Shown here one piece after another: positions 4,062 through 52,750 of a stretch of DNA of 64,000 bases (its first letter is position 1; each line of letters begins with the position of its first letter). Origin of the DNA: Gossypium raimondii (taxonomy: Eukaryota > Streptophyta > Magnoliopsida > Malvales > Malvaceae); the NCBI RefSeq assembly GCF_025698545.1, contig NC_068569.1, positions 22,816,001-22,880,000 of the forward strand, written 5' to 3'. Below the pieces are notes generated by a model. It was not told where the DNA came from and did not search any database. It saw nothing but the letters and a program-made list of their open reading frames with translations. A program made the translations under genes and the position numbers.

Positions 4062-4572
4062 TTTAAATTTGGTAAAAGACCTCTCAGTCCTCTCAATTTC
4101 AAAATTGAGCAAATTGGTCTCTTTTAAAATATTAAAGCAATTTAATCCCTACCAATTTGAAAGTGAGTAACTAAGTACAATTAATCACAATGTTTATGTC
4201 TTTTGTCAATTGTACATAATTTTAATTGATATAATATCAAATTTAGCCTTCAATGTTTACATATTTTGTCATTTTGGCCTTAATTCTAAAAAATCAACAA
4301 ATTCATCCTCAACATTTACACAAATATTGCGGGATAAATTTGTTAAATTAGGAACAAATTGACAAAGTGTGTAAACTTTTAAGGCTAATTTTGTTATTAT
4401 ACCAATCAAAATTATGTACAATTGACAAAAGACATAAACGTTGTGATTAATTGTACTTAGTTGCTTACTTTTGAAATTGACAAGGATTAAATTGCTCTTG
4501 TTTTTTTTTAGAGCGACCAATTTTCTGAATTTTGAAATTGAGAGGGACTGGAGAGGCCTTTTTACGTTTAAG
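4062..4572. mobile_element. Palindromic MITE (about 0.5 kb)
   Basis: The two halves are inverted copies of each other. The left arm reads (a)cctctcagtcctctcaatttc, then later tgtttatgtcttttgtcaattg. The right arm repeats the same words in reverse complement, for example gacaaaagacataaacg and gaaattgagagggactggag. Arms are about 230 bases with a short AT-rich middle, and nothing is encoded. The form is that of a non-autonomous DNA transposon. Superfamily not determined because target-site duplications are not clear. Confidence 0.65.
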
Positions 4573-8936: not shown

Positions 8937-10187
8937 GAGTTAATTGCATCAAACATCGGCATATTGTGACTCCAATTTTAAATTGGTTCAAAGCTTCAAA
9001 ACATTTTAATTACATCCCCAAACAACGATGTTATATATTAATAAGGTCTTTCCATTATTAAAATTATTAATCTAATCATTAAATGACGATCAAATCTTAT
9101 GTGACTAAATATAAAATGAAAATTCTAAAGAAAAATACAATATTTTCACGTAACTTTTAGAAGTAAAAACTAAACATAAAGTAAAACTGAAAAAAAAATA
9201 GTGTATGATAAAGCTTTTATTAAAGTTTTGAAAATGTAAAACTCCTTACCTGAGTTCATATGATAACTCGAGCAAATGATGCTATATATATGAACTAAGA
9301 GCACTAAACTTGAACATCATCTAGTTCTGAAAAAATAACAAGAATTGTGGGAATTTTCTCTGTGTTTCATTCCTTCCAAAATCAAGAACATATTTACACG
9401 GTAAAATACAAAGATAGAAACCAAAATATTATCTCCTAAACTTTAGCATATAATCTCCTAATTAAACCAAAATACTATCTCCTAAACTTTAGCATCTAAT
9501 CTCCTAATTAAAAGAAAATAGATATACACAAAAACTACCATACATATTTACAGAATTAATTCCAATAAGTTCACTTCATTTTAACCAAATTAAGCTCATT
9601 TTGGAGTGGCTCGTGTCATTTCCAAACTATCATCAAAGTTTGGTTGCAATCGGGGCGCATTTAGAACCCTTTCGGAGCAACATAAACCAAATTAGGTGGT
9701 CCGAAGCAATTGTTTCGACAGACCACCTAATTTGGTCTAGTTTGCTCCAAAAGGTTCCTGAATGTGCCTTGATTGCAACCAAAATTTGACGATAGCTTGG
9801 AAATGATCTAAACCACTTTAAAATGAGCTTAATTTGGTTAAAATGAAGTGAATTAGATGATGTTCAAGTTTAGTGCTCTTAGTTCATAAATATAACATCC
9901 TTTGCTCGATTTATCATACGAACTCGAGTAAGGGATTTATAGAAAACCTTAAAACTAATATTTTAAAACATCCATTTTTACAATATTTAGTTTTTCTTAA
10001 AATTTTCATCTTAATTCATGTCAGATAAGATTTGATGTGTCATTTAATTGTTAAATTAGTGATTTTCGTAATGGAAGGACCTAATTGATATAACATCAAT
10101 AGTTTGAGGTGTAATTAGAATGATTTAAAGTTTAAGGACCAATTTAAAATGATGGTATTAGTTTAGGATGTTTGGTGCAATTAACTC
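8937..10187. mobile_element. Mutator-like fold-back element with 0.5-kb arms
   Basis: A near-complete palindrome centred at about 9713 (ggtggtc...gaccacc around a 17-base loop). The left end is GAGTTAATTGCATCAAACATC and the right end is its reverse complement with one or two differences. The flanks are 9-bp direct repeats, TTATAAGTC at 8928-8936 and TTATAAGTT at 10188-10196 (8 of 9 identical), the size made by Mutator-type transposases. The left arm is interrupted by a separate 240-bp insertion (9328-9567). No transposase is encoded, so this is a non-autonomous element. Confidence 0.8.
9328..9567 (-). mobile_element. Small solo-LTR-like insertion within the fold-back element
   Basis: Absent from the matching right arm and flanked by a perfect 5-bp repeat, AGTTC (9323-9327 and 9568-9572), so it inserted after the palindrome formed. 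On the minus strand it opens with a TTGGAATTAATT sentence typical of small Copia or TRIM-type LTRs. Inside it are two tandem copies of a roughly 47-base unit at about 9420-9514 (atctcctaaactttagcat). Non-coding fossil; family assignment tentative. Confidence 0.65.
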
Positions 10188-10208
10188 TTATAAGTTTAAA
10201 ATTATTTA

Positions 10209-10730
10209 GGGTAAACTATGCCCAAGGTCACTAAACTAGTAGTAAGTTTACATATTGGTCTCTCAATTTCAAAAAAGTTATAAAATGCTCACTAAACTAT
10301 TTGAAAGTTTTCATCGAAGTCATCAGGCTGTTAAAATTATTGTTGTACGATCTTCTCTGTTCACGTCACATGCACTAATCAGAAGCTCTAATTCCCTTTT
10401 CTCTTCTACAATTCATTTATTTATGAAACATTTGTTATCATCACAAATCTATGAACTAAAATCCAAATAGCTTTCTTATTCGATCTTCGATACTGGCCAT
10501 TAGATCGACTTAGATCTAATGTATCTTCTTCTACTTGTCGATGGGTACTAATCTACTGTATCGATCGTCGAATCGCTATTTAAAGCTCACTAGTCGGGCT
10601 TTAAAAAAAAAGTCCTGTGACTTAAATAAAAACTTTCAAATAGTTCAATGACCATTTTGTAATTTTTTGAAGTTGAGTGACCAAAAGGTAAACCTACTAA
10701 TAGTTTAATGACCTTGGGTGTAGTTTATCC
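10209..10730. mobile_element. MITE with about 110-bp terminal inverted repeats
   Basis: The left end GGGTAAACTATGCCCAAGGT is matched in reverse complement by the right end GGATAAACTACACCCAAGGT, and the match continues through caatttcaaaaaa and actatttgaaagttttta. The middle is unique and non-coding. Convincing target-site duplications were not found. It lies 20 bases from the fold-back element. Confidence 0.75.
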
Positions 10731-10942
10731 AATAAATATAGTATTTTCCATTTCATTTCAAATTGACTAAAAATGAAGATTCAGCGCCACTTCGTTTCCG
10801 AGCAATTAATCATATACGAAATCAAAATGCTCTCGAATTTAAAGACGAAAAATAATGCAAGAGTTTTTTCATCTCTGAACCAAGAAAAAACCATACATCG
10901 CTTTATTTTTCGTTGATCTGATCCACCTTTATTTCAATAAAA

Positions 10943-13860
10943 ATGGCCGAACAAATTAGCATTGCCAAATGCCCATCCTCTAAATCAACGACGACTGTAT
11001 CCAGACGCAGATCCTTATGGCCGTCCGTTCTCCGTTGGATTCCGACATCTATAGACCACATCCTCGCCTCCGAGAAACGCCTTCTCTCTCTCGTCAAGTA
11101 TGTAATTCTTCGATTTTGTTTGCTTATCATTTAATTTTTGAATTCTACAAGTTTACCTTCAAAAAGCTGGAACCTTTGATTTCACGTTACCTCAATTCTC
11201 ATGTTTCAATCACCTTTTTTTTTCCTTTTGTTCCTTTTCATTTGGATTACAATTGGGTTTATGTAAGTGGATTCTATTTTATTAATTTTGGTGGGAAAAT
11301 TGGATAGGAATTCGATCGAATGAGCTGTTGAAAATTTCAGGACTTCATACGTGCAAGAACATGTGAATATAGGTTCAGGTCCATCTGGTTCTAAAATTAG
11401 GTGGTTTCGTTCTTCGAGCAACTCGCCGAGGTTCGTAAATTAAGTTACATTTGATAGCAAAAAAGGCGCCCCAACACTTGTTTTGATACATGGATATGCT
11501 GCTTCTCAGGGTTTCTTTTTTAAGAGCTTTGATTATCTCGCCGAACATTTCCAGGTCATTGCCATTGATCAGCTTGGGCAAACAGGAAGCTCCTTTTGTC
11601 TTAAAGCTAAACTGCACTAGTGATAACTTCGATTCGATCAGTTCTCAGGTTCATTTATGGTTTACTAAACAAAATCCTTATGATGTGTTTGTTAAAAAGC
11701 AGCTAATGCCATGCATCCTGTATTTTGAGCTTGATATCACAATTCCATTATAGTTTCTTAGTCTTTTTTCACCTTTCTTTCCAGTTGGGGTGGACCGAGC
11801 AGGCCTAACTTACATGCAAAAGCACTGAAGGTTAGTGAGAGGAATTAAGAATCCCTTCATTTACTAGAAGTTCCTAAAGCAATTGCATACATTTTTCTCG
11901 TTGTTTCCTTGTTAATGATGCAGAAACTGAGGCATGGTTTGTTGATTCTTTTGGGGAACGGCGTAGAGTGAAAAATCTCAGTAACCTTATTATACTTGGA
12001 CATTCTTTTGGAGGATATATTGCTTCTAAATATGCTCTCAAGGTGACTGCTTTTACTTGTTAAATGTTTCAACGGAACAAGTTGATACCACATTTTTTGG
12101 TTCTACTGCCTTACCTTTATTCTGTACTCTGTAGCACCCTGAGCACGTTCAGCACTTAATTTTAGTGGGACCTGCTGGATTTTCATCAGAACCAGATAGC
12201 AGTATTGAGTGGCTAACCCGCTTAAGAGAGACATGGAAAGGGGCAACTTTGAATCGTTTGTGGGAGTCTAATTTTACTCCTCAGAAGATTGTAAGATTTG
12301 TTTATCTTGTCCAATTTTCTAAGCCTACAACCAGAAATCAAGGTCAGCTATTACACATTGCTCTGGACTGGTCTGCCAAAATTATATCATTAGAGAACTA
12401 TTCTCTAAATGCATCTAGTAAGTTTGTTCACTGTTAGGAAAAACGTGGTAACCTGTTGCTATTGAGAACTAAAATCTTATCTCTCCATCTGCTCCTATTT
12501 GGTTATTGCTTCTACCTTAAACTGTTGTTGGAATAATTTTGTGGGTCTCCTCTGTTTATATTGCTGTCAAAGTCCTCCTACCCCAATTTGATTTGTTTGA
12601 TTTTGTATTTAGTTTCATTGATTGCTTTTGGAATGAAATAGTTTGATTAATTGCTCTGTGTTTTCTGGATGATTCTGTATGCAGAGGTTTAGGTCCCTGG
12701 GGTCCAAAGATTGTACACAAGTATACGGCTACTAGGTTTAATCCTAAAGATTCAGCTGATTTTGTACTGGCAGAGGAGCAGAATAAACTTCTGACAGGTT
12801 AGATAAGATTTTTAAGTTTGTGTATAGCTTATGTATAAGTAAATAATAGAGATATCTAACAACTACTTTTTCCCTCTTCTTCATGGTTGAAGATTATGCA
12901 TACCATATTTCCGCTGCCAAAGCAAGTGGAGAGCTGTGCTTAAAACATATATTCTCTTTTGGAGCACTACCTCGGGTGCCTCTTCTAAATAGACTTGGTT
13001 ACACTGCTTGATATTTATTGGGTCCATTGCATTGGCTAATACATGCGTATTTATATTGATTTCTGTATAGACCTTTGAAAATACTATTTCTGCAATATCC
13101 TCACATTGACTTAAAAACATACTCTAGAATGCAAAATATGTATCTCTTGTTGCTCTTGGTACATTTCTGTAGATCCACAATAAAGAAGCAGGTATTGTTA
13201 ACAACCATGAATTTATCTATGCATCAATTATATGAGAAAAAAATAAAATAAAATAAAAAGAGAGTAATGCCCTTGTAATGTTCTCAAAGCTTCACTCTGG
13301 TGTAAAATGCCAGTGAATAGGCATACCTTCATTGCTAGCAGAGGATTATGATATAAGCGGTTCATTCATAATTGCATGGCATCTAATCAAAACTAGGAGA
13401 ACACACTTTTCAAAATTTGATGCTGACTAATTTAAGAGCCATAGAATATGAACGACTAGCTTGTATCTAGCAACAAGAGATGAGTTCAGGTTTTTAGAAG
13501 ACACTACTAAGTTTCATTTCTTTTTTCTATCTTTTTTTTCTGTGAATAGTGCATCTGAATGGAAAGTGCCAACAACATTTATATACGGGACTGAAGATTG
13601 GGTGAACTATCAAGGAGCCCAAGACACTACTAAGGTTTGTTCACTTCTGCCATACATAAGAAGTCAACAGACATTGTGCATTTTTCCATGTAAACCTTTT
13701 ATATTAATGGAACCTTAAATGGAGTAAGTTAGAACCCAAATGGCTATATCTTCCTGTCAGACTCCTTATCTTGGCTGCATTTCTGTCATATACAGGGTGG
13801 ACATTTCGTGTTCCTTGAAAACACAGAGGGATTCCATTCGGCCGTGTCATATGTGCATGT
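10943..13860 (+). pseudogene. Alpha/beta hydrolase pseudogene (CGI-58/At4g24160-like)
   Basis: Intron-containing remains of a gene for a CGI-58-like lysophosphatidate acyltransferase/lipase. Pieces in order: exon 1 at 10943-11098 (SLRWIPTS-type start, PSVLRWIPTSIDHILASEKR); 11338-11600 (YVQEHVNIGSGPSGSKIRWF, then GAPTLVLIHGYAASQGFFF); 11786-11830 (WGGPSRPNLHAK); 11922-12042 with the nucleophile elbow GHSFGG; 12136-12293 (HPEHVQHLILVGPAGFSSEP); 12684-12798 (GLGPWGPKIVHKY); 12893-12988; 13549-13635 (SASEWKVPTTFIYGTEDW); and from 13797 (GGHFVFLENTEGFHSAV). Broken by an in-frame TAA in the second piece (FVN-stop-VTFD). The piece around IDQLG reads on past its junction, and the short exon before the last conserved block is not found. 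Because introns remain, it arose by DNA duplication rather than retroposition. Residual transcription cannot be excluded. Confidence 0.75.
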
Positions 13861-14035
13861 AGGAGATTTCTCTCACCTAACCCTGATACTCAACCCTTGC
13901 CTTAAGGCTTGGAATCAGCTTAGAATAAAGTATTGTAATTTCTTCACCCACACTTTTTTGTATAATACATAATCACGAGATTCCTTTGTTCTGTAACATT
14001 CTTTTTGGTCAATAAAACATTCTTTTCTTCCAACT
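13143..14035 (+). repeat. Duplicated block A, copy 1 (hydrolase 3' end)
   Basis: Covers the last hydrolase exons and 3' flank. It is repeated almost letter for letter at 19307-20161, which has a deletion of about 35 bases relative to this copy. The near identity of non-coding bases implies a recent event. Confidence 0.9.
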
Positions 14036-14987
14036 TTTTATCTTATACATATTGGCTGTTGAGTTGTAGATTGTATCTTATATCTGGCTACTGGTTAATG
14101 GGAATTTCTGATTTAACAGATTGTATCATATATTTTTATTGTATTTTTTAGTCAACATAAATGGGCAGTTGCAGTTTTTAGAAGGAAAACTGGAAAACTG
14201 TTTGGAGTTGGTTCAATATCATGATGGGATTGAATGTGGGGGGTTTAGGAGTGTTGAACCTTGTCCGAAGTCACGAGACACGTAAGGCCACTGTACTCTG
14301 TTGTTATTTCCATTATTTTATCTGTAACTATTTTCCTTCGGCGGAAATTAAAAAGTTGAGGCTGATACGGTGGGACCCGGAAACTCGAAACCATACAACT
14401 TTTCGTGTCATATCTATTATTTTGCATGCAGTAGTAATTTATTTCATTCACAAAGAGAAAGTGACATTAAGAAGAGTGGGTCCACGATGGAAACTATAAA
14501 ATTTTTTAATTAAATTATAATTTTTATGATAGAAAAAATATAATTTTATTATTTTAATAGATTATATTTTTATTATTTTAAAAAAATAATTTAAAATTTT
14601 ATAATTTAGGGTTTCAATGACATACTTAACTGCTACTTCTACTATTCCCTTCATTATCTTCACGTGTTTTTTACAGGTTATATGTTTTACTTTTTGGTGG
14701 GAACAACCTTCTTCATTCCGTACAAGGTAAAGCTCCTTAAACGGTGCCGTCCAGTCAAAACTAATAGTACATTTTATGTTTATATATTTAAACATAACTT
14801 GCATTCAGCAAAGATGGAATAGTTTGGCTAAAAGAAAGAACTTTTAACATATAATGCAATAAAAAATAGAACAATATAATGATCACAAATGACATAGTTG
14901 GAGTTTGGGTGCGAAATAAATTTTTTTTTTTTAAAAAGGAAAGAATGAAGGAAAGTCTCAAATGGGGGAAGGTAAAGAGGTTGGATC
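14036..14987 (+). repeat. Duplicated block B, copy 1
   Basis: Starts tatcttatacatattggctg and runs through the kinase 3' flank into its last codons (ggtaaagaggttggatc). Repeated at 18419-19306, and in truncated form at 20162-20280. Non-coding apart from the last bases. Confidence 0.9.
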
Positions 14988-17900
14988 AGCTGAAGAAGGA
15001 ATTTTAAGTCCAACCCTACATCCTTCTAACATGAAAACGATATCTGCCATTGATGGTCTATCAAATGGATCTGTTGCAGTGCAAAGGAGTCCAACTTTGA
15101 CACCTAACAAGAATTCTTCCCACTCTGATGATTCAGGGTCTAACTCAACCAACCCTGGTTCCAACAACTCCGAAATTTGCCCCTTTTGTAGTTGCTTCTT
15201 CACCCATTTCACTATGTCTTCATCTTGTGTGAACATTACCGGTTTTCTTCCTGTCAGGATTTCTAAAACTACGATGCCGAAACTGTACACGTCGGCTTCT
15301 TTGGATGGTTGTCCTGTTAATGAAGCTTCAGGTGCCATGTAGCCTAGTGAACCAACTGGGGTTGATGATGATGAAGCCTCTGCCGGGGTGGCTATTGTCA
15401 GCTTCTCGAGTCCGAATTCGGACAAATGAGCTTCAAAATCGGCATCGAAGAGTACGTTTTGGGGTTTGATATCACCATGAACTATTGATAAGGAGTGCAA
15501 AATCGCTAGGCCGCGACCAATACCAAGTGCGATGAGATGACGCATTGGCCAATTCAACATATGTCCATCTTGGTGATTTGCCTCTTGGAGGAGTGTGCCT
15601 AGGTTTCCATTAGGCATGTAGTCATAAACAAGGAGCCTTAAGTCTGGTGGTCCGGCATAATAGCCTCGTAGAACCGTTATGTTTCGATGCTTTACCTTGC
15701 CAAGCAATTCGGCTTCTTTTCGAAATGTACATTCATCGATGGATCCATCAACAAGGCGACGGATTGATAGGACTGTTCCGTCTTGATAGGTCGCCTTGAA
15801 CACAAGTCCATATCTTCCTCTGCTCATGACATTTTCCTCATCGAATTGCCTTGTTGCTTCTAATGTCTCTGCCAGCGTTATCTTGTTATTAAACATAACT
15901 AATTTCGGACCTCCATTTTCGCCGCCCCCACGATCCCTATCTGCTACCGAACTCGCACTGGCTGGACTTCTTTTCTTCTCCCCATTTCCCCATTCTCTGA
16001 GCCTCTTGCGCCAGCGTAAAAGGCCGTAAATATATCCACAACAGAACACTGCAACAAAGAAAGCTCCACCAGCAGCTATAACAATTAATAGAATCAGCTT
16101 CCTACGTTTTCTGTTTCTCACATTTGCACATTCTTTCTTCAATGGCTTACCACATAGTTCTCTGTTCATCGAAAACACGGAAGGATCATCGAAATGAGAA
16201 CCGAGTGCACTCGGGATCTCACCTTCAAGATAGTTTCTTGACAAATTCAGGTGCTTCAAGCTAATCATGTTTGAAAGGCTTGATGGGATGGATCCGCTCA
16301 AGTTATTTGATGAAAGATTCAAAGCTGTTAGATTGGATAGTTTTGACAATAATTCTGGTATGTTTCCTGATAGGTGATTTCCATCCAGGAAAAGAGTAGT
16401 AATAGATGAAAATCTGGAGATTTCATCTGGGATTTCACCATCTAAATGATTCAAACCCAAATCAAGCTCTTTCAAATGAGATAATCGAGAGAGATCACCT
16501 GGGATATTGCCACTCAAACGATTCGAACGAAGCTGAAGTACTTCAAGATCAGAACAATTATCAAGCTCCAAGGGAACCATACCTGAAACTCGATTAAAGC
16601 TGACCGAAAGCACAACCAATGACTGCAATAAACCATAGCTACTCGGAATCTGACCAGTGAATCCATTAGAACTGAGATTCAAGTACTGCAAATCAACCAA
16701 GTTGGTGAAACCTTCAGGAACATCACCAGACAACCTGTTTTCTTGAAAAGCAACAACCTGCAAACTTGGTAACCCGAAAAGCTCAATTGGCAGCTCTCCA
16801 GAAATCTGCTGCTTGCTAAAATCAAGAGAAGTTAATTTCATCATGTTCCCAATACTCCCTGGAATCGCACCGGCAAATCCACAGGAACTTAAATTTAAAA
16901 CCACCAAACTCAATAAATCCCCCAAACCAACAGGAATTTCTCCAGAAAATTTGTTATTGCTGAGGTTTAAAGTAGTTAAATTACTCAACCGCATTATATC
17001 TTCGGGGACCTTTCCGGTGAAATTATTTCCGCTCAAATTCAACGTTTCAAGCCCCGAAATGTTCCCAAACCCGTACGGGATTGACCCAGAAAATAGATTT
17101 CTCCCCAACGATAGACTTTTCAAGCTCTTCATTTGACTGAAAAAAATCGGCATTTGCCCGGAAAATCGGTTTCCTTCAAAATCGACGACCTTTAACGAGC
17201 CACACTGTAGGAGCTGAGTGGGAACCGAACCGGTCAACGAGTTGTTCGCCACTCTAAGATCTTCTAACTTAAAAAGGTTGCCTATTTCAACTGGTAATAA
17301 ACCAGTGAAGAAGTTTCTAGAAATATCCAATATTCTCAACGTGGTCAAAGTGGTCAACCAAGAGGGAAAAACACCGTGGATTTTATTCTCGTGAAGGTCC
17401 AAAACCTCCAAAACTGCAACGCAACTTTGGTTATTTTGCGGCTTAACGAATTCCGTGAACTCATTAAATGCAAACTGCAGGATCCTCAACGACGGCGTAA
17501 AATTCCCCGACGATTTACAGAAAATGCTTTCGGGAACAGCACCGGAAAGTCTGTTATGCGATAATGCTAGCACTTGAAGATTCGGAACCGCACCGATACT
17601 TCCCGGAACAAGTCCTTTAAGCTTATTATCTTGTGCGCTTAAATGTACCAGCGAAGAGCAGTTCGCTATAGCCGACGGTAATGTACCATACAACTGGTTC
17701 GAGTCAAGCCAAAGGTACTGTAGTTCTTGGAGCTTGCCTATACTCGCCGGAATGCCACCGGAAAACCGGTTGTATGAGAAGTTGATAAGTTGGAGCTGAG
17801 ACTGTGCCGAGAAATTTGACGGTAGTTCTCCGGAGAAATCGTTTGAGGATAAATCGAGGTACCGGAGGGACCAATGGAAATCGGAGGCGATTTTTCCGGT

Positions 17901-18383
17901 TAGATAATTATGAGCTACATTGAGGACTTGTAAATTGGTGAGGTTAAAAATGGAAGGCGGGAGGTTGCCGGAGAGTGAGTTGTAGTGCAAGTAAACAGCG
18001 CGTAAGAGAGCGCATTGGGCAAGAGCGTTAGGGATGTCGCCGTTGAAGTTGTTAGAATGGAGGTTTAATTTGCGGAGCTCACGTAAGTTGGATAATTGAT
18101 CACTGAGTTGGCCACCGAGTTGGAGGCGAGGCAAATTGAGCTCGCGGACTCGGTTGTTGTAACAAACAATGCCACGCCAGTCGCAGGGAGCTGATGGCGT
18201 GAGCGCATCCCAGCCGTCGAGAGCACCAAGTGGGTCTTGGAAAACACTGCGTTTAAAGGACGTAAGCGCACGGATCTCCGCTAGAGTAACGGCACTGTGT
18301 TGTTGAGCGTAAGAAGATGGTACGACGACGTTGGAGATGAAGAAGGTGAGGGAGAGAAGAATAATAGTAGCCGTTATTTCCAT
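14958..18383 (-). CDS. LRR receptor-like kinase, MUSTACHES/MUL type
   Basis: Intronless 1,141-residue plasma-membrane receptor-like kinase. Order: signal peptide (about 1-26); LRR N-cap with CDWRGIVC (67-74); a long leucine-rich ectodomain with many LNLSSN...G.IP repeats; a Cys pair (ELCGKPLKKEC); transmembrane helix about 763-789; and a kinase domain about 845-1120. It resembles Arabidopsis At4g36180 and At1g75640 (MUSTACHES, which sets guard-cell symmetry) through the kinase (RGYYAGPPDLRLLVYDYMPN) and the C-terminal SSADPTSxPSP tail. Catalytic motifs are unusual: the beta-3 lysine position reads LSIRR (Arg875-876), the catalytic loop is HGD (969-971, non-RD), and DFG is EFG (989-991). This suggests weak or no phosphotransfer and a scaffold-like role. 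Only about 40 bases of its 5' flank are original; beyond that lies a duplicated block. Start chosen at the first ATG before the signal peptide. Confidence 0.93.
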   Translation of the reverse strand: MEITATIILLSLTFFISNVVVPSSYAQQHSAVTLAEIRALTSFKRSVFQDPLGALDGWDALTPSAPCDWRGIVCYNNRVRELNLPRLQLGGQLSDQLSNLRELRKLNLHSNNFNGDIPNALAQCALLRAVYLHYNSLSGNLPPSIFNLTNLQVLNVAHNYLTGKIASDFHWSLRYLDLSSNDFSGELPSNFSAQSQLQLINFSYNRFSGGIPASIGKLQELQYLWLDSNQLYGTLPSAIANCSSLVHLSAQDNKLKGLVPGSIGAVPNLQVLALSHNRLSGAVPESIFCKSSGNFTPSLRILQFAFNEFTEFVKPQNNQSCVAVLEVLDLHENKIHGVFPSWLTTLTTLRILDISRNFFTGLLPVEIGNLFKLEDLRVANNSLTGSVPTQLLQCGSLKVVDFEGNRFSGQMPIFFSQMKSLKSLSLGRNLFSGSIPYGFGNISGLETLNLSGNNFTGKVPEDIMRLSNLTTLNLSNNKFSGEIPVGLGDLLSLVVLNLSSCGFAGAIPGSIGNMMKLTSLDFSKQQISGELPIELFGLPSLQVVAFQENRLSGDVPEGFTNLVDLQYLNLSSNGFTGQIPSSYGLLQSLVVLSVSFNRVSGMVPLELDNCSDLEVLQLRSNRLSGNIPGDLSRLSHLKELDLGLNHLDGEIPDEISRFSSITTLFLDGNHLSGNIPELLSKLSNLTALNLSSNNLSGSIPSSLSNMISLKHLNLSRNYLEGEIPSALGSHFDDPSVFSMNRELCGKPLKKECANVRNRKRRKLILLIVIAAGGAFFVAVFCCGYIYGLLRWRKRLREWGNGEKKRSPASASSVADRDRGGGENGGPKLVMFNNKITLAETLEATRQFDEENVMSRGRYGLVFKATYQDGTVLSIRRLVDGSIDECTFRKEAELLGKVKHRNITVLRGYYAGPPDLRLLVYDYMPNGNLGTLLQEANHQDGHMLNWPMRHLIALGIGRGLAILHSLSIVHGDIKPQNVLFDADFEAHLSEFGLEKLTIATPAEASSSSTPVGSLGYMAPEASLTGQPSKEADVYSFGIVVLEILTGRKPVMFTQDEDIVKWVKKQLQKGQISELLEPGLVELDPESSEWEEFLLGVKVGLLCTATDPFDRPSMADIVFMLEGCRVGLKIPSSADPTSLPSPI

Positions 18384-18418
18384 AGAGAAGAAATGGAAAG
18401 TACAAAAAAACTGAAAGA

Positions 18419-19306
18419 GTTTTTATCGTATACATATTGGCTGTTGAGTTGTAGATTGTATCTTATATCTGGCTACTGGTTAATGGGAATTTCTGATTTA
18501 ACAGATTGTATCATTTATTTTTAGTGTATTTAATTTTTATTCAACAAAAATGGGCAGTTGCAGTTTTTAGAAGGAAAACTGGAAAACTGTTTGGAGTTGG
18601 TTCAATATCATGATGGGATTCACGAGACACGTAAGGCCACTGTACTCTGTTGTTATTTCCATTATTTTCCTTTGGCAGAAATTAAAAAGTTGAGGCTGAT
18701 ACGGTGGGACCCGCAAACTCGAAACCATACAACTTTTCGTGTCATATCTATTATTTTGCATGCAGTAGTAATTTATTTCATTCACAAAGAGAAAGTGACA
18801 TTAAGAAGAGTGGGTCTTTTTTAATTAAATTATAATTTTTATGATATTAAAAAATATAATTTTATTATTTTAGTAGATTATATTTTTATTATTTTAAAAA
18901 AATAATTTAAAATTTTATAGTTTAGGGTTTCAATAACATACTTAACGGCTACTTCTATCATTCTCTTCATTATCTTCACGTGTCTTTTACAGGTTATATG
19001 TTTTACTTTTTGGTGGGAACGACTTTCTTCATTCCGTACAAGGTAAAGCTCCTTAAACGGTGTGGTCGAGTCAAAGCTAATACTACATTTTATGTTTATA
19101 TATTTAAACATAACTCGCATACAGCAAAATGGAATAGTTTGGCTAAAAGAAAGAACTTTTAACATATAATGCAATAAAAAATAGAACAATATAATGATCA
19201 CAAATGACATCGTTGGAGTTTGGGTGCGAAATAATTTTTTTTTTTTTAAAAAAAAAGGAAAGAAGGAAGGAAAATCTCAAATGGGGGAAGGTAAAGAGGT
19301 TGGATC
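18419..19306 (+). repeat. Duplicated block B, copy 2
   Basis: Begins tttttatcgtatacatattgg directly upstream of the intact kinase and ends at the same kinase 3'-end word (ggtaaagaggttggatc). The kinase body is missing and block A copy 2 follows. It is somewhat diverged from copy 1, with small deletions. It now occupies the place of the kinase promoter. Confidence 0.9.
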
Positions 19307-20161
19307 TCTCTTGTTGCTCTTGGTACATTTCTGTAGATCCACAATAAAGAAGCAGGTATCGTTAACAACCATGAATTTATCTATGCATCAATTATATGAG
19401 AAAAAAATAAAATAAAATAAAAAGAGAATAATGCCCTTGTAATGTTCTCAAAGCTTCACTCTGGTGTAAAATGCCAGTGAATAGGCATACATTCATAAGT
19501 GCATGGCATCTAATCAAAACTAGGGGAACACAGTTTTCAAAATTTGGTGCTGACTAATTTAAGAGCCATAGAATATGAACGACTAGCTTGTATCTAGCAA
19601 CAAGAGATGAGTTCAGGTTTTTAGAAGACACTACTAAGTTTCATTTCTTTTTTCTACATTTTTTTTCTGTGAATAGTGCATCTGAATGGAAAGTGCCAAC
19701 AACATTAATATACGGGACCGAAGATTGGGTGAACTATCAAGGAGCCCAAGACACTACTAAGGTTTGTTCACTTCTGCCATACATAAGAAGTCAACAGACA
19801 TTGTGCATTTTTCCATGTAAACCTTTTATATTAATGGAACCTTAAATGGAGTAAGTTAGAACCCAAATGGCTATATCTTCCTGTCAGACTCCTTATCTTG
19901 GCTGCATTTCTGTCATATACAGGGTGGACATTTCGTGTTCCTTGAAAACACAGAGGGATTCCATTCGGCCGTGTCATATGTGCATGTAGGAGATTTCTCT
20001 CACCTAACCCTGATACTCAACCCTTGCCTTAAGGCTTGGAATCAGCTTAGAATAAAGTATTGTAATTTCTTCACCCACACTTTTTTGTATAATACATAAT
20101 CACGAGATTCCTTTGTTCTGTAACATTCTTTTTGGTCAATAAAACATTCTTTTCTTCCAAC
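19307..20161 (+). pseudogene. Hydrolase 3'-end fragment (block A, copy 2)
   Basis: Second copy of the last exons of the alpha/beta hydrolase: SASEWKVPTTLIYGTEDWVN at about 19675-19761 and GGHFVFLENTEGFHSAV from 19923, with the same intron and 3' flank. The 5' part of the gene is absent, so this cannot make a hydrolase. It is about 97-98 percent identical by eye to 13143-14035. Confidence 0.85.
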
Positions 20162-20280
20162 TTTTTATCGTATACATATTGGCTGTTGAGTTGTAGATTG
20201 TATCTTATATCTGGCTACTGGTTAATGGGATGGGAATTTCTGATTTAACAGATTGTATTATATATTTTTATTGTACTTTT
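20162..20280 (+). repeat. Duplicated block B, copy 3 (truncated)
   Basis: The first 119 or so bases of block B (cttttta tcgtatacatattgg through ttgtactttt). It then jumps straight to the kinase 5'-end fragment, so the remainder of block B and nearly the whole kinase have been deleted here. Confidence 0.85.
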
Positions 20281-20445
20281 AAGCGCACGGATCTCCGCTA
20301 GAGTAACGGCACTGTGTTGTTGAGCGTAAGAAGATGGTACGACGACGTTGGAGATGAAGAAGGTATATAAGGGAGAGAAGAATAATAGTAGCCGTTATTT
20401 CCATAGAGAAGAAATGGAAAGTACAAAAAAACTGAAAGAGTTTTT
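20281..20445 (-). pseudogene. LRR-kinase 5'-end fragment
   Basis: Copy of 18264-18423: the 5' untranslated bases, the ATG and about 40 codons of the kinase (MEITATIILLSL...LAEIRA). A four-base difference (ggtatataaggg where the intact gene has ggtgaggg) shifts the frame inside the signal peptide. Its upstream side, from 20446, is unique sequence and is therefore probably the original kinase promoter. Confidence 0.85.
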
Positions 20446-20660
20446 GGAAATGAAGGGATGGCAGAGATTCAGAGAGGGGGCGCGGTTAAGCGGAGACAGG
20501 CGGACTGACAGAAACGACGCCGTTTAAATCGGGCCAAAAGGAGAGAATCATTTAACAGGACTGTTGTGCTCACGAGGGGTTAGATCAGGTCAGTTGGGTT
20601 TTGCTCTAATTGTTTTAATAATGTGTCTCTAGATGCAACCCAAAGTAATGCACTCACACA
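20446..20660 (-). promoter_or_regulatory. Probable ancestral kinase promoter, now separated
   Basis: Unique, locally GC-rich sequence (ggcagagattcagagagggg, gaaacgacgccgtttaaat) abutting the kinase 5' fragment. As the intact kinase copy is joined to block B instead, this is inferred to be the original upstream region. Inference from the repeat structure only. Confidence 0.4.
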
Positions 20661-22829
20661 ATTGAATGCTAGGAGAAAAAAAAAATCGTAATTATATATT
20701 TTGTTTATTCATTTTCTTATTTCAATTATGATATATTTGATTTTATAAAAAAAGTTATATTTAATTTCCATTAGAATTAAGTATTTTAAATGTATATTTA
20801 ATTTAGTTATATATTATCATTGTTAAAGTTAATATATATAATTATAAATTTTAAATAGTTACAAAATTAAAAGAGAAGACAAAATTAAAATATAATTATT
20901 GTTTATAATATTTTTAAAAATAATAAACTTGCAACAAATGAGTTCTTAGTTTAATAGACAATTTTAAGGTTAAGAATTTATCTCGTATTTAAGTCTCATT
21001 TTGTGTAAATTATGTGTGGGTTATTAGTCATGTCTTACGGTATTTAGATCTTATATAGATTTATTTTGATCTCGATATGCTTAGGTTATCGATTGATTGT
21101 CATTTATAATGATTAATTCTAATTATAGTTATTCGGATCTACTATTTGTAATTGCAATGTGACTACTTGTAACTTCAAAAAAGTACATTTATTAATTATG
21201 TTATGTTTAACATATGATTGTATTAGAATATAAAATTATTTGCAATTTAATTCAGGCATAACGATAAATTTAATTCTTAACACTTACATCCTTATCAATT
21301 TGTCCCTTATTTTTTGAGCTGAATTTGGTCATCAACAATTTAAAAAGAGTCAAATTTCTTATTATTTTTTAACGAAAATATTGACTAAAACATTAAAATT
21401 TTGAGCATGATAGCTCACATGGAAATCCACGTATACCTTATGCTAATTTTCTTGAATTTTTATTTTTTTAATAATTTTATAATTTTTCAAATCCTTGGGT
21501 TATTAATAGATGGAATGCAACTAATTCAAAAAGTTAAAGGCTTGGATCCGCTTAATTCCACGTGTACCTTAATTCCACATTAAAATTTTGAACATGGTAA
21601 CTCACATGGCAATTCACGTGTACTTATCCATTAATTAGATTGATATAACTTGATTTGCTCATAAAAAGTTAAAAAGGCTTGGATCCGTTTAATTCCAATT
21701 CGAAAATCTTGAGCAAAAAACATTGAAATTCAAATTAATTTTAACTTGAAATAACTTAAATTTGTGTGTCAAACCTAAATGACAAAGCTCAAAATTATCC
21801 AAACTTGAAATGTCCCATCCTAAAAAAAACCCAACTTGTAAGCTTGAGTAAACATTATTTGAACTTAAAATGTTGAGAAAAATTTTTAAACTTAAATTGA
21901 ATCGATCTAGATTAACTTGACTCAAAGTTAACTTAACTCGTGTGGTTGATAGGTCTAATTAAATATAACGAATATCTTAATATCTCATTTAAATACTTTT
22001 ATTTTCATTAAAAGAAAAAATAATTTAAATTCTAGTTAAAAATCAAGTATGAAATCAAGCATAATGATCAAATTCTAGTTAAAAATCAAGTACTAATAGA
22101 GCTATTAATCTGTATAAAGAACTAAGTGGATATAAAAGCAATGAAAAGAAGAAAAGGTTATGGTGTCACAAGCAGGCGATTGTTGCTTTGATAATATATA
22201 ATATGGATTGAAATTTTATAGTGAAAAGGATGAGAATATTAGGAGTGATGTAAAGATGGCAAGTGGGTAGTGATGATTTGGTGATTAAAAGGTGTAATAA
22301 TAAAAAGGCATGAGGAAATGATTTGTTTACTCCATCAAAGTGCTTATAATTTATAAGGTTGTAGTAGTAATGATTTGGTTGAGCAGCGTTTATGGGGCTT
22401 ATCATTACAAACCACCTGCGCTCTCCTCTTCACATCATTTCGTTTGCTAAATAAAAATCATGCAATGGACGCCTTATATTGTTTTCTTAAGTTTGATTCA
22501 CACCACCCCTGCTTTTGTGGATACTATAGGAATGCCTATGAACTCTAGATTAGGCATCAATTGATTCTAATGATTTAGTAATCGAATGTGATTACTTTTC
22601 GCAATAGAAATGTCATCTGAAGTCATATAAACTTTGTAAATAATAAACCATTAGCCCAATCACCAAGACTGGTAGGCTAGAGCCATTGACCAACCCCAAC
22701 AGGTTTAGCGCATTAACACTCATTCTATACCAGACATGGCTTGAAAAGATAACTCAGGTCAGGTATAGACGTATAGGTCAGCATCACTCCGTGGAGGTGA
22801 GATAAAAAAACGAATCAGGTGATGATGTG
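20660..22829. other. AT-rich intergenic spacer
   Basis: No gene recognised. Around 21390-21640 a phrase (aaaattttgagcatgatagctcacatgg) occurs twice in direct orientation, probably the remains of a small transposon. The rest is low-complexity AT-rich sequence. Confidence 0.4.
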
Positions 22830-22834
22830 GTACG

Positions 22835-24309
22835 TATCAAATTACACACAACCAGCCAAGAAAATGTGTTTGACTACTGAGAAAACAAAACAAAATAAGA
22901 GAGAAACATAAATCATTCAATAAGAATTTGATTATATCATCATATCTGATTGCTACTGTAGCATACATCTTTATATAGCATCATGCACCGTGTGCTCATT
23001 ATTAACTGATGCATAACAACATTACAACTGACTTCAAACACTTTGGCTAACTACCATCATCTGTATAAGAACTTCCAACTGCTTAACTGATAGAGTTGCA
23101 TTGTTAACTGATCTTGGAATCTATTCACTAACATTCCCCTGGTTGTCTTTATCTGAAAACTTCAAAACATCAGTAAGAGCCATTACTTGAAGGTTGTTTC
23201 GAAAAGAAGCAAACAGTAACTCAAACACACAATTAGCTAAGCTGCGATACTCAGTCTCTGAACAAGACCTGGAAACAACTCCCTGCTTTTTAGAACACCA
23301 GGCAATAGGATTCGGACCAAGGTACACATAGTAAGTAACCTGAAGTAGAACGTCGATCTTCAATTGTAGAGGCCCAATCTGCATCTGCATAGCATACAAC
23401 AACAAGCTGCCCTCTAGTATAATACATGCATATTCCATCGTTCCAATGAGGTATTGAAGCACTCGTTTCACTACTCGCCAATGAGTATCCAAGGGCGAGT
23501 TCATGTATTGACTAAGTTTGTTAACAACATAAGGAAGACCTTTTATTTTCTAAATCTAGTTGGTTTCTTCTTTTCAAGTTAGATTCGAATCGAATCTTTT
23601 TTCGAGTCGAATAACGTAAATACGGTCTTGGTCTGCTATCCTTGTCACATTCAAATTAGTATTGGATTTTGTTAAAACAACAACATATTTGATAAGCGGC
23701 GAGGGTGGAGTTAAGGTGCCATCAACGAATTTCTGCAACTTATGGGCCTTCAACGCAAGGACATCTGTTGATGCCAAAGAAGATAATTAGTATCATCGAG
23801 TACTATATTAAATCTTTTTTGTAAAGAATAGTTGATTGTCAGAGGCCATCAGAAGAAGGAATGCTCCGCAGCGTCAGTGAATCATTCCAGAGAGATCAAT
23901 ATTTGGAGGTGCCATAGGATGGCAAGAGAGAGAGAGAGAGAGAGAGAACTAATACACGAACTAGAGAAGAGAATTCGTGAGGAAAAATAACTCTGATACC
24001 ATATCAGATTACACACAATCAACCAAGAAAATTGTTTGGCTACTAAGAAAACAAAAGAAAATAAGAAAGAAACATAAAACGTTCAATAAGAATCTGATTA
24101 TATCATCATATCTGATTGCGATAGCAACATACATCTTTACATAGCATCATGCACAGTGTGCTCATCACTAACTGATGCATAACAACATTACAGCAGATTA
24201 CAACTGACTTCAACCACTTTGACTAGCTACCATCAACCATATAACAACTTCCAACTGCTTAACTGATAGAGCTACACTATTGGTTGATCTTGGAATTTAT
24301 TCACTCATA
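22835..24309 (-). mobile_element. Shrunken Copia-type LTR retrotransposon
   Basis: Two LTRs of about 300 bp (24002-24309 is the 5' one, 22835-23133 the 3' one) enclose only about 0.87 kb of interior. Next to the 5' LTR is a primer-binding site reading TGGTATCAGAG (initiator Met-tRNA type). A purine tract AGGGGAA abuts the 3' LTR. The interior keeps only the end of Copia pol (reverse transcriptase tail and RNase H, at about 23121-23520; HWRVVKRVLQYL). Flanking repeats GTACG/GTACA fit a 5-bp target duplication. Most of gag-pol is gone, so the element is a broken fossil. The LTRs differ by roughly a tenth by eye, suggesting moderate age. Confidence 0.85.
23925..23947. repeat. (AG)n microsatellite
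   Basis: A run of about eleven AG units inside the Copia remnant, close to its primer-binding site. Confidence 0.9.
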
Positions 24310-25419: not shown

Positions 25420-26177
25420 GAGTAAACTACCTAATTGGTCACCCAATTTTTTAAGCATTTTCATTTTGGTCTTCTAAATAAAAATACTTGCAATTTAGTC
25501 ACTACTAGTAGAATAATTAAATATTTTAATCACCCAATTTTTAACTCACTAACAAAATCTAATGTGGTGTTCCACATCATGTCCAAATAAGCAGTAATTG
25601 TTGACTATTTTTTGATCCACTACTATTCATCATATTCTTCCCCTCTAAATGTAACGACCCAAAATTCAGTGGTGTTGAAAATTATAATTTTGGGACCTAT
25701 TTTCGTAAATTGAGTCCGTAAATCAAGCCATTCACTAATTAAAAATCTATAGCGATTGGATTTTACAATTTAGTCCCTGGGCCTTAATTAAACATAATTT
25801 CAGCTAAATTAACTATCCAAATTTACATATAACAATATATTATACACATCAATATTAATATTTAATATTTAATATTTACGAACTCGATTTTCAAAAATGA
25901 GATCCGAAATCGTAATTTTTGACACCATTGAATTTCAGGTCGTTACATGTGGAGGGGAAGAAGATGATGAATAGTAGTGGGTCAAAAAATAGTCAACAAT
26001 TACTGCTTATGTGGACATGATGTGGATTGCCACATCAGATTTTGTTAGTGAGTTAACAGTTGGGTGACTAAAATGTTTAATTATTCTACTGGCAGTGACT
26101 AAATTGCAAGTATTTTTATTTGGGTGACCAAAATAAAAGTATTCAAAAATTTGGGTGACCAATTAAGTAGTTTATCC
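25420..26177. mobile_element. Fold-back MITE with about 290-bp arms
   Basis: Left arm (gagtaaactacctaattggt onward) and right arm (read from 26177 in reverse complement: ggataaactacttaattggt) are inverted copies. The pairing carries on past TGTAACGACC at about 25650 and GGTCGTTACA at about 25946 towards the centre. Nothing is encoded. The end sequence G(A/G)(G/A)TAAACTAC recalls the MITE at 10209-10730, suggesting a common superfamily. Confidence 0.75.
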
Positions 26178-28161: not shown

Positions 28162-29217
28162 TCAATAAATAGGATAAAATAAAAATGATATAGCATAATT
28201 ATGATAAAAACAAAAAAATAGATTAAATTGAGTTAAAAACGAAGCAATGGGGCGAATTTAAAATAAAATTTAAAAAAGAGGCCCACACGAATGCGCGCGT
28301 AACAATGGAGGACCAAAAGGGAAATTATCCCATCCTTCCCAAAACGCTGCGCATCAATGGGTTAAATTGGAACACACAAAAAAAATGCGACTCAATTTGC
28401 AAAAGGAACAAATCGGTTTGACTGAAGCAAGTCACAAAAAACAGGGGCCAAATGCGCAATTAGACCTTAAAAGCCAAACGCGCGGATCCTCCCCTTCGGG
28501 TCGGGTCACCGCGCGGGTCGAGGCCTGGACAAAACGGCGCCGTTTTACTCTGCTATTTAAAGCAGTATTTTTTTTAAAAAAAATCAATTTGCAGCAGAAT
28601 AAAAAGAAAAAAATGAAAGGAAGGAAAAAAAATTTCCTCTGCTAGGGTTTCGCCTCAGTCCCTTGCGCCGCTGTCCATCCGCCGTGGTTTCATCGCAACC
28701 AGTGGCCGGAGGCGCGCCAAACTGGGTTTTTTAACCCTTTTTCGAGCCGATCTGAGGGCGAGGTAAGCCTCTCTCCCTTTTCTTTTACTTTTGTATGCAC
28801 AGAAACTAAACAAAAATAAAAAACTAAAGAAATTTTAATAAATCACCTTAAAACTGATATTTGCTTTTCTATTGATTTTTCTCTCTGTCATGTATTTCTC
28901 TTTTTCCCCTTTTACAGATTTCTAAAGGCTTTTTATAGCCCGAAAAAGAAAAAGAAAAATAATAAAATCAACATCTGTCTTTGCTGTTTTTTCTCTTTCG
29001 GATTCTTTGAACCCGTTTTTGCAGGTGTCGTGGAGCGAATTGTGCGCGTGGGGAGGCCGATCTCCGAGTCCTGCTGCGGCTAGAGGCTGGGGAGGTTGCT
29101 ACTTGTTGCGGCTACTTGCTGCTAAGGTTTTCTGTAGTATTGGGCTAGTTCAATTGGGCCTACATGTGTTGGGCCATTCTAGGTTTAGTTGGGCCCGGGC
29201 ATTATTGGGTTTGTACA
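26853..29217 (+). mobile_element. Solo LTR, 2,365 bp, with perfect TSD
   Basis: Starts TGTCGAAACC, ends GGGTTTGTACA, and is flanked on both sides by TTACA (26848-26852 and 29218-29222), a perfect 5-bp target-site duplication. No internal region is present, so it is a solo LTR of a long-LTR retrotransposon (Gypsy-like by size). Inside it: a near-5' sentence tggagtcgccaccgatcc; three copies of CCAATACGTTAGGG (about 27170, 27270 and 27377); an AT-rich tract; an AAT microsatellite; a possible TATA (ctatttaaag, about 28551); and a GC-rich downstream part. The sharp TSD suggests it is younger than the other LTR relics here. Confidence 0.85.
28092..28160. repeat. (AAT)n microsatellite
   Basis: More than twenty consecutive ATA/AAT trinucleotide units, located inside the solo LTR. 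Confidence 0.95.
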
Positions 29218-48531: not shown

Positions 48532-50731
48532 TCACAACACCATGCTTTGAAACTCCCCTTTATCCTTCTTCACTTCATCAGCAGCATCCAACTCGACCGA
48601 GTTCTCGACCCTAGCAGTGCTCTGTCCCATGCCATTCTTTCCCTTATATCGTCGAGCAACCCACAAGTACTTCAAGAAATTAGCAGCATTGATTATCGCC
48701 AATACCCAGTAGAAATTATCGAGCCTGCTTTTGTTGAGATCATTTCTTAGCCACCCTGTTTGTTCTCCACCGGTTGCACGCTCAATGATTTTAACAATGG
48801 CGGTGCTCAACCAACTTCCAATCCCAATCTCACTAAGAAACATCGCGCTGCTTATGCTTCTCGTCCCATCGGTCGCTTCTTCATAAAAGAACTCCAATTG
48901 TCCCACGTAAGTGAAAACCTCGGCAGTGCCAATTAAGAAGAACTGCGGAAGCAGCCAGAACACTGTCAAAGATGACAGATCAGGGTGGTCTCGGCGTTTC
49001 TTCTCGACTAAAGCAGCCGAGGCCATTGCAAAGATAGATATGAATAGGCCGACACCCATTCTTTGTAAAGATGTAAGACCACGACGATGACCGGTGTGTT
49101 TACGTAAGATCGGGACCATCCATATTTCATAGATGGGGACGAGTAAGAGGGCGTTGATGGCACTGAAAACAGGGACCGAGCCTGCTGGAATGTTGAAGTG
49201 CGGACCAAGTTTGCGGTCCATAATGGTGGCTTGGCTGATGAAGAAGGTCGAGAGTTGAGCAAATGAGATGGAAAGAGCTATTGTAGATGCCCATACAGGG
49301 AGGATTCTGACGAAGGACTTGAATTCTTCTACTTGAGTCACTGTGCAAAGCCTCCATCGGTTTTTAGTATTAGCTTCAGGATCGATCACCATTGCTGCCT
49401 TGTCCAAGAACCTGTAATAAGAAGCCAACTTATACAAATAATTTCAATGTCCAAGGGACAGGGGTGACATTTATCTACAATTACCTATACTGGTTCGTTC
49501 GAGTGAGTTTCCGAGCACCAAAAATATCAGACTCCATCGAATCAACTTCATATAAAACAGCTTCACGTTTTAATTGAGCCCCATGAAAATGGTTCCTAAT
49601 AGAAGCCACAAGAACCTGGAGAAACCTTGTGAAAGGACTTCCCATGGGTTTTTGGTAACGATAAAAAGGTATTCCAGCAGCTAGGATTAAAATGGAGCAA
49701 ACAATAGCCACAGTAGGGACTCCAAAACCCCAACCATAACCTGTCTTCTCTTCTACATATACCAGAAGCGTGATCCCCAAAATGGCACCCATGTTTATAG
49801 CAAAGAAGAACCAGTTAAAGAATGAATATTTCTTTTGGGCTTCTTTTTCATCGGCTCCGTCGAACTGGTCTGCTCCAAAGGATGAAACGCATGGCTTGAT
49901 ACCACCGGTTCCAAGGGCTATAAGAGCCAATGCAACAAAGAGGAAACCTGATTGGTTGCCGGTTGCTTTAATGCATGGTCTGGCCGTGCATTGTGGTGGT
50001 CGCAGGCTGTCTATGGAAGCCGATAGAGTCAGCAAAATCATTCCCTGAGAAAGAAAAAAGAAGAACATGGGGCCTTTAGGATACATGGTCCAACAATAGC
50101 TGATGATTCAGGATGAGCCAACTAGTGTTATTTAGGCCTCTCTGCCATGGGATTTAGACCATCTAAGGCATATGAAATTATGAAAGGGAAATGCTAGCTT
50201 ACGACTGCATATATGCACGAAAAGATGATGATGGTGAAGAATCGACCCAAATAAGCATCGGCAAGAAATGCTCCAAGTAGAGTAAGACAATAGGCAGCTC
50301 CGATCCAATCATTCACATGAGTTGCAGCAGATGGAAGCGATTGGTGCATTTCGAAAACCAAATAAGCCACCATGTTCACTGCTACTGCAAAGAATGCCAA
50401 TCTCTCCGCAACCTCGTTAACTATAATTCAAAGAAAACCAAACCATGAATCAATCAGTGACCACAAAATCACGTCAGTAGATCTCCTCTTAATACCCAAA
50501 ATTGAGCTGAGGCGTGAGCTGGTTTTCGTGAATACCTATGATAAATGGAGATGCCTTCCATCCTCCAGTTGTTTGTTTATCTGCAATATTCCCTCTAATA
50601 TCCACGCATCCATTGCCAACCAATGTAGTTGATGATTCAATTTTCCCATCATCCTGCTGTATATTCTCAACAAATTTCTCCATAGATGGCTGAATAAAGG
50701 ACTTCTCAAATGGGTTACCACCAGGTTCCAT
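48532..50731 (-). CDS. NRT1/PTR family (NPF) proton-coupled transporter
   Basis: Membrane transporter of the NPF/POT family (nitrate, peptides, hormones or other metabolites, driven by protons). Four exons on the minus strand: 50536-50731, 50203-50420, 49485-50044 and 48532-49411, frame-consistent, giving 617 residues. The ATG at 50731 is the first in frame; upstream the frame meets a TAG. Diagnostic points: the ExxER proton-coupling motif (NEVAER, residues 67-72) in helix 1; DWIGAAYCLTLLGAFLADAYLGR; ALGTGGIKPCVSSFGADQFD; a long central loop rich in charges before the second six-helix bundle; and FFYEEATDGTRSISSAM near the end. About twelve helices are expected. Substrate and NPF subgroup not assigned. 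No damage seen. Confidence 0.92.
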
Positions 50732-52081: not shown

Positions 52082-52750
52082 TTACATGCACCACGGGGTT
52101 TGCAAGGCATCCCATCCTGTTGTATCGACAAGACTGGTACCGAAAATGCTTGGATCATCCATCACTGGAAAATCTAATGACATAACAGCTTCTGCCCAAA
52201 TGGAGTCATCTAAAACAGGCAAGTTCATCGTCATATTCTCCCAAAACCCACCATTTTCTTCTTGGTTTTGTCCAAATTTGGCATTGTTCGCCACCATGTT
52301 CCCTTGAGACATATCTGATTCACTGTTGCTCACTGGTGTTACTTCATCGACCCTGATAATAATTGGGCTGTTCGGTGAACTGGTAGTCGCATTTAGAGGT
52401 TGGTTCCCTATCGGGGCGACCTGAGTATTTGACGAAGGAGGTGGAAACCGAGAGTTGACACACAAGTGTGGCAAGTTGAGCTTGGCATCCGAACCATAGA
52501 GTTTACGTGCGGCAGAATCGTAAGTCATCGCAGCTTCAAGGGCGGTGTCGAAAGTACCTAGCCAAAGACGAGAACCACGGTTGGGTTCACGAATTTCAGC
52601 CACCCATTTGCCCCAAGTTCTTTGTCTTACGCCTTTGTAAGTGCAAAGAGCATTCTCTGGACCTCCCTTCCCTCTCATGCACCCTTTTCTCGAACTCGCT
52701 TGTGCACGTTTCTTCACTAGTTTTTTCTCTCCAGACCCAGAGCCACCCAT
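52082..52750 (-). CDS. DREB2F: DREB2F-like AP2/ERF transcription factor
   Basis: Single-exon, 222-residue nuclear factor of the A-2 (DREB2) group, expected to bind DRE/CRT elements (core CCGAC) in abiotic-stress responses. A basic N-terminus (KKLVKKRAQ) and the group motif [12 protein letters not shown] (22-33) precede the AP2 domain (about 37-95, [20 protein letters not shown] to [10 protein letters not shown]). The DREB-type Val14 and Glu19 of the domain are present (Val50, Glu55). The acidic C-terminus ([20 protein letters not shown]) matches the activation-type tail I recall for Arabidopsis DREB2F (At3g57600). TATA box at 52828-52835. Lacks the longer negative regulatory region of DREB2A. 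Complete. Confidence 0.9.

Follow-up and report, generated by a model that had tools for sequence, protein, structure and literature searches.

We analysed a 64,000-nucleotide window of the Gossypium raimondii genome (C5:22816001-22880000, free of any N) that harbours K, an intact leucine-rich repeat (LRR) receptor-like kinase gene surrounded by rearranged copies of its own flanks and of part of a neighbouring alpha/beta-hydrolase gene. The structure was read from a self-BLAST of the window, block alignments and direct inspection of the sequence, and the genome searched comprised 750,779,957 bases in 281 contigs (C1-C13 of 48-63 Mb, C14 of 22 kb and C15 of 49 kb). From left to right the order is A - B - K (intact) - B' - A' - B'' - K 5' fragment - unique flank P, with the following features in window coordinates.

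13143-14034, forward strand: block A, the 3' part of the alpha/beta-hydrolase gene with its last introns, exon remnants and 3' end; ancestral copy (from the repeat, the paralogue match and alignment).
14035-14987, no strand assigned: block B, the stretch between the convergent hydrolase gene and K, including the K 3' flank, stop codon and last nine codons.
14958-18383, reverse strand: K, an intact single-exon LRR receptor-like kinase gene of 1141 amino acids.
18384-18424, reverse strand: shared 5' leader, 41 bases common to K and the fragment, with the K|B' join inside the T run at 18420-18424.
18419-19306, no strand assigned: block B', a copy of B in the same orientation immediately upstream of K, with a weak TATA-like word at 18467.
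19307-20161, forward strand: block A', a copy of A from which 37 bases are deleted.
20162-20279 (end approximate), no strand assigned: block B'', about the first 118 bases of B.
About 20280-20445, reverse strand: K 5' fragment, with the leader, the ATG (20402-20404) and about 40 codons, in which a 4-base insertion shifts the frame.
20446-20700, reverse strand: P, the unique part of the putative old promoter region of K.

The block order and coordinates given in a preliminary description of this DNA are borne out by self-BLAST and block alignments. Self-BLAST pairs 13143-13332 with 19307-19496 (98.4% identity), 13363-14148 with 19490-20280 (98.0%), 14035-14231 with 18420-18620 (95.5%), 14271-14987 with 18620-19306 (91.1%) and 18263-18424 with 20280-20445 (97.0%), and the lengths of these repeats place them far above chance (BLAST E-values ≤2e-40). 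Repetition almost letter for letter, as first described, holds for A/A' and for K and its fragment but not for B/B', which differ by substitution at 30 of 878 sites and by seven internal gaps (1-40 bases each). The estimate of about 40 bases shared upstream of the two ATGs proved accurate: there are 41, and the outermost five form a T run that is also part of B'. Block B extends into the K coding sequence by 30 bases, which comprise the last nine codons and the stop; on the strand of K, B' thus opens with DPTSLPSPI-stop and continues with the K 3' flank. The open frame of the fragment spans 41 residues before a stop.

Genome searches with A, with the fragment region and with the A'-to-fragment stretch returned solely this locus and old paralogues (3 of 3, 3 of 3 and 5 of 5 candidates scored, respectively). 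With B' as the query, only a stretch of about 100 AT-rich bases inside B matched outside this locus among the 40 of 217 candidates scored, so that a weak further copy of B may exist elsewhere in the genome. Among the matches listed in a search of the open-licence literature, made without the locus name, we found no paper on this locus.

K encodes LRR, LRRNT_2 and Pkinase domains in a single chain, together with a hydrophobic stretch that we read by eye in the paralogue alignment as transmembrane, the composition of an LRR receptor-like kinase. Its nearest relatives in the genome lie on C6 (dS 0.85) and on C11 and C2 (dS 2.3 and 2.9, both saturated). The frame is intact, omega relative to the C6 paralogue is 0.157, and the two proteins have evolved at equal amino-acid rates (Tajima test, 65 vs 79 with C11, chi-square 1.36; 77 vs 76 with C2, chi-square 0.01). 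K is thus intact and constrained; if the rearrangement is young, the intact frame and the rates say nothing about present function. The C6 paralogue is shorter by 24 amino acids of LRR. We considered EFG in place of the kinase DFG as a sign of K-specific decay and rejected it, as the C6 paralogue also carries EFG while the C11 and C2 paralogues keep DFG; because C6 shares it, EFG is older than the rearrangement. SEFG stands in K (window 14958-18383) and in the C6 paralogue (C6:324644-328000), SDFG in the C11 and C2 proteins, and IRR occupies the usual lysine motif in all four kinases. K and its C6 paralogue are possibly a catalytically weak kinase pair.

A hydrolase paralogue at C5:15253023-15256282 is collinear with window positions 10919-13138 and 13460-14025, and a hand-assembled translation of the exons upstream of A contains an Abhydrolase_1 domain (E 1.8e-16). 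The left A is the ancestral copy, since it is continuous with a hydrolase gene that follows the paralogue in order over 10919-14025 except at 13139-13459. In the window gene, compared with the paralogue, the exon ending near 12990 is no longer followed by a splice donor, the exon near 13635 is incomplete and the last-exon frame is shifted; as judged from these lesions, the gene (window 10919-14034) is probably a decaying copy. Both of the lesions that lie inside A are also present in A' and must therefore predate the duplication or have been spread by later exchange. With the paralogue as outgroup, A' is the changed copy at the two sites that can be polarised by eye (13580 and 13592) and in the 37-base segment. 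Two observations at the A|B border fit this scheme less well: BLAST likeness to the hydrolase paralogue stops at 14025, ten bases short of the border, and the MAFFT alignment with the paralogue shows at most a weak, putative likeness past it.

The A|B adjacency is present twice (14034|14035 and 20161|20162), whereas B|K and fragment|P are each seen a single time, as would fit a normal gene. K|B' is not ancestral because A precedes B at both other places. Ancestrally, then, the order reads A (hydrolase 3' end) - B - K - P, K and the hydrolase gene being convergent, and the new joins are three, K|B', B'|A' and B''|fragment. TTTTT is shared at K|B' (18420-18424), where the following ATC comes from B alone; B'|A' has zero shared bases, or ATC together with two extra bases; and about TA is shared at B''|fragment. 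The junction words proposed at the outset, tttttatc and tctc, accordingly reduce to five T at K|B', and of the suggested microhomology or unequal exchange, microhomology is clear solely at that junction. Since a simple duplication or deletion creates a single new join, the structure needs no more than three of them or one complex event, and the tandem duplication originally described is better stated as three new joins plus a 450-base identical tract that calls for later homologous exchange.

We consider it likely, from the sequence at hand, that this is a real local rearrangement that left the intact K, of its former upstream region, only the 41 bases next to its ATG. The adjacencies alone show that the old 5' flank was lost: the sequence upstream of K is new, and the old 5' flank adjoins the fragment alone. 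To this extent the earlier view that K left its promoter behind and now sits behind a copy of its own 3' flank is upheld. P, the putative old promoter, now heads a frameshifted stub.

The divergence of the blocks bears on how the joins arose. A and A' differ at 10 of 855 sites and by one 37-base gap; all 10 substitutions fall in the left 413 sites, the right 442 being free of them (4 of 2000 in a change-point permutation). The longest identical run in A plus B/B' measures 450 sites, spans A and the start of B, and was reached in 0 of 2000 permutations. K and the fragment differ at 1 of 157 sites and by the 4-base insertion, which we assign to the fragment, the K frame being intact. B/B'' (2 of 109) and B'/B'' (3 of 109, B'' having a 5-base gap of its own) do not discriminate among models of the history. 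Two divergence classes emerge, A-left with B/B' (40 of 1291) and A-right with B/B'' and K/fragment (3 of 708), and two ages (log-likelihood -197.7) are far better than one (-207.6).

A substitution rate of 7e-9 per site and year, applied as t = K/r, and an A/D split near 5.7 Ma are given in a published study (PMC7203013). Dating was performed here with K/2r (K in both formulae being divergence and not the gene), which at 7e-9 places the older class at roughly 2.3 and the younger at roughly 0.3 million years. At 3.5e-9, an alternative cotton rate, the rough ages become 4.5 and 0.6 million years.

The history that we favour would start with a tandem duplication of A-B, making the join B|A, followed by a duplication from B to the K leader that made the join K|B' and left two full kinases for a time, driven from P and from B' respectively. 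Most of the P-driven kinase would then have been lost in a deletion of some 4.1 kb, creating the join B''|fragment, and homologous exchange in A would have homogenised or eliminated an A-B unit and made the left A a hybrid. We are evenly divided over whether events took this order. The strongest rival, plausible though we rate it somewhat below that, is a single replication-based event with repeated template switching, in the manner of microhomology-mediated break-induced replication (MMBIR), that made all three joins, with a later A/A' conversion giving the 450-base tract. It differs from the sequential history in the course of events alone and not in structure. The three joins lie within 2 kb of each other, all with little or no homology (five, zero to three and about two shared bases). 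Several points in the divergence data also weigh against two separate ages: one event with conversion of A-right reaches a log-likelihood of -196.7, as good as two ages, the breakpoint in A used in the age models was picked from the data, and the comparison of K/fragment with B/B' by itself is non-significant (Fisher p 0.07). Conversely, a single event requires a separate conversion tract and has to accommodate 1 of 157 differences in K/fragment beside 30 of 878 in B/B', and extending the conversion to A-right and B'' gives a poorer fit (-199.8). Two duplications of different age with a deletion, or one complex event with gene conversion, fit about equally.

P and B' were compared with the upstream regions of the paralogues in three alignment tests, the scoring having been changed after the first two. 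In a plain local alignment with C6, shuffled sequences reached the score of P in 2 of 200 cases and that of B' in 26 of 200, both alignments lying on AT-rich stretches. End-anchored global alignment did not place P above shuffles (854 of 1000 against C6, 838 against C11 and 230 against C2), and B' was likewise null (820, 908 and 599). The third test was a local alignment of 300-base upstream regions from which the last 42 (first sequence) or 25 (second sequence) bases had been removed, with G/C matches weighted up. Here, P scored 36.4 against C6 (shuffle mean 24.4; 3 of 500 shuffles reached the score) over a match of 87 columns that starts with GGCGTCGTTTC, whereas B' scored 20.4 (349 of 500); the positive control, C11 against C2, scored 48.4 (0 of 500).

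GGCCC lies in P at -131 and AAACGGCGTCGTTT at -121 from the fragment ATG, and the C6 paralogue carries GGCGTCGTTT at -151 in its upstream region. B' contains neither P-type motif (GGCCC or AAACGGCGTCGTTT) within 400 bases. We interpret these data as moderate paralogue support for P as the old promoter, P resembling the C6 paralogue promoter and B' not; the adjacencies provide the stronger argument for the loss of the old 5' flank. Some of the results pull the other way. The global alignment of P with C6 was null, P reached a high score with the more distant C11 (2 of 500, with a shared T run; 160 of 500 with C2), and B' scored above most shuffles with C2 (24 of 500) though not with C11 (440 of 500). 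The P/C11 and B'/C2 scores imply that part of the P/C6 signal may be composition. The abundance of AAACGGCGTCGTTT in the genome (2659 occurrences, against 1 for the reversed control) was also rejected as proof of a promoter: among ten sampled sites (taken from the first 13 listed on C1 after three close neighbours had been skipped), 8 are interlinked by BLAST, which we read as one dispersed repeat family.

Outside the motif, P matched the ten sampled sites weakly (at best 17 bases around it). Open reading frames beside the ten motifs were tried as a further indicator and discarded as uninformative, the longest per site spanning 40-103 codons and 1 of 10 exceeding the 90% point of unmatched control stretches (100). 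AAACGGCGTCGTTT itself lies at window 20512-20525 and a variant at 28532-28545; by eye, the linked AAACGGCGTCGTTT sites and the 28532 variant lie in a dispersed repeat with GCGCGGATCC- and GGGTCGGGTC-like words. A study of Arabidopsis promoters based on the local distribution of short sequences (LDSS) includes AAACG(C/G) among its novel element groups, with the function unknown (PMC1832190). A dispersed AT-rich repeat with 51 further scored matches extends from about 20700-20730 to at least 21300; its near end is some 250-285 bases from the old K leader on the upstream side, which leaves little unique sequence in the old promoter.

In this arrangement, transcription of K would now start either in the short leftover leader or in B', which repeats the final codons, stop and 3' flank of K itself. 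The 3' flank of K would have taken the place of a promoter that contained GGCCC and AAACGGCGTCGTTT, and B in front of K would initiate on the strand that originally runs antisense into the hydrolase gene. That the terminator region of K gave rise, over the past few million years, to the promoter that now drives K is a tentative reading, and to us a rather doubtful one. On the strand of K, B' contains a single TATAA (-84 from the K ATG) and a single CCAAT (-57), in an AT-rich setting and neither convincing, as well as five AATAAA words that all lie in AT-rich sequence and are each weak evidence.

The want of a convincing promoter or P-type motif in B' speaks for a K that is silent, an intact but dying gene, whereas the intact frame and the rate equal to that of the C6 paralogue speak for a live one, although they are powerless if the change is young. 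We regard a silent K as unlikely.

Transcription of K from P, by a long read-through transcript or by splicing of the fragment to the K leader, strikes us as improbable. P is kept beside the old leader, on the same strand and about 2 kb upstream of K, and there is a precedent in PEP1 of Arabis alpina, which is described as a full gene in tandem with a partial copy that carries exon 1 and part of the promoter (PMC3527215). The two loci are alike in combining, in a plant, a full gene and a partial copy in tandem with several overlapping duplicated blocks, but the two PEP1 copies of exon 1 splice to shared later exons and yield two full transcripts. K has no intron to share, and a copy of its own terminator lies between the old promoter and the gene. 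PEP1-type two-promoter splicing is unlikely at K because K is one frame of 1141 codons and a stop-containing copy of its end lies between P and K. The path from P on the strand of K leads through the fragment, B'', A' (antisense), B' (last codons of K, stop and 3' flank) and the K leader. RNA from P would thus meet the copied K terminator before K, since B' carries the last nine codons, stop and 3' flank, and the fragment ATG would be read first, its frame stopping after 41 residues. An assembly artefact with collapsed or misordered copies, to which the 450-base identical tract could have led a short-read assembly, is very improbable, because the differences of B and B' and the private gaps of A', B'' and the fragment (37, 5 and 4 bases) mark the copies as distinct sequences, and the assembly has 13 chromosome-sized contigs and a window free of N.

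The window also contains a glyoxal-oxidase-like gene (1123-2766), a POT/PTR2 transporter gene in two open reading frames (48532-50086) and an AP2/ERF gene (52082-52750). Large inverted repeats with arms 78-89% alike, by eye resembling miniature inverted-repeat transposable elements, occupy 4074-4562, 8937-10738 and 25423-26174; of these, the partly nested 8937-10738 set sits immediately to the left of the hydrolase gene. At 22835-23129 and 24002-24305, direct repeats of some 300 bases, 85% alike and 0.9 kb apart, could be a small element of the long terminal repeat (LTR) type.

The locus has structural features of a partial tandem duplication with exchange of 5' regulatory sequence: an intact coding sequence is joined to a locus-derived 5' copy at K|B', and an incomplete copy, the fragment (20280-20445) beside P, retains the old 5' region. 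In Drosophila yakuba, tandem duplications shuffle regulatory elements and make chimeric structures with reported expression change (PMC5460883). The likeness to those cases lies in a tandem duplication that reshuffles regulatory DNA; that study drew on a population sample with RNA data, whereas we describe one assembly in which only a fragment of the gene is left on the old promoter. Tandem duplicates are common among the LRR receptor-like kinases of Gossypium, in annotated gene sets within 200 kb and mostly in subfamilies XI and XII, and K shares the gene class and the genus, but the main text of that survey does not use the word 'partial' (PMC6316826). Partial tandem duplications that reshuffle promoters are a known kind of change in plants (PEP1) and flies, and this locus is an ordinary rearrangement of that kind. 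Its attraction is that a copy of the gene's own terminator occupies the place of the promoter, while the old promoter survives 2 kb off and can serve for internal comparison. An expressed K would reveal how readily a 3' flank turns into a promoter and would allow regulatory turnover after duplication to be tested and dated, whereas a silent K would illustrate an ordinary route to gene loss.

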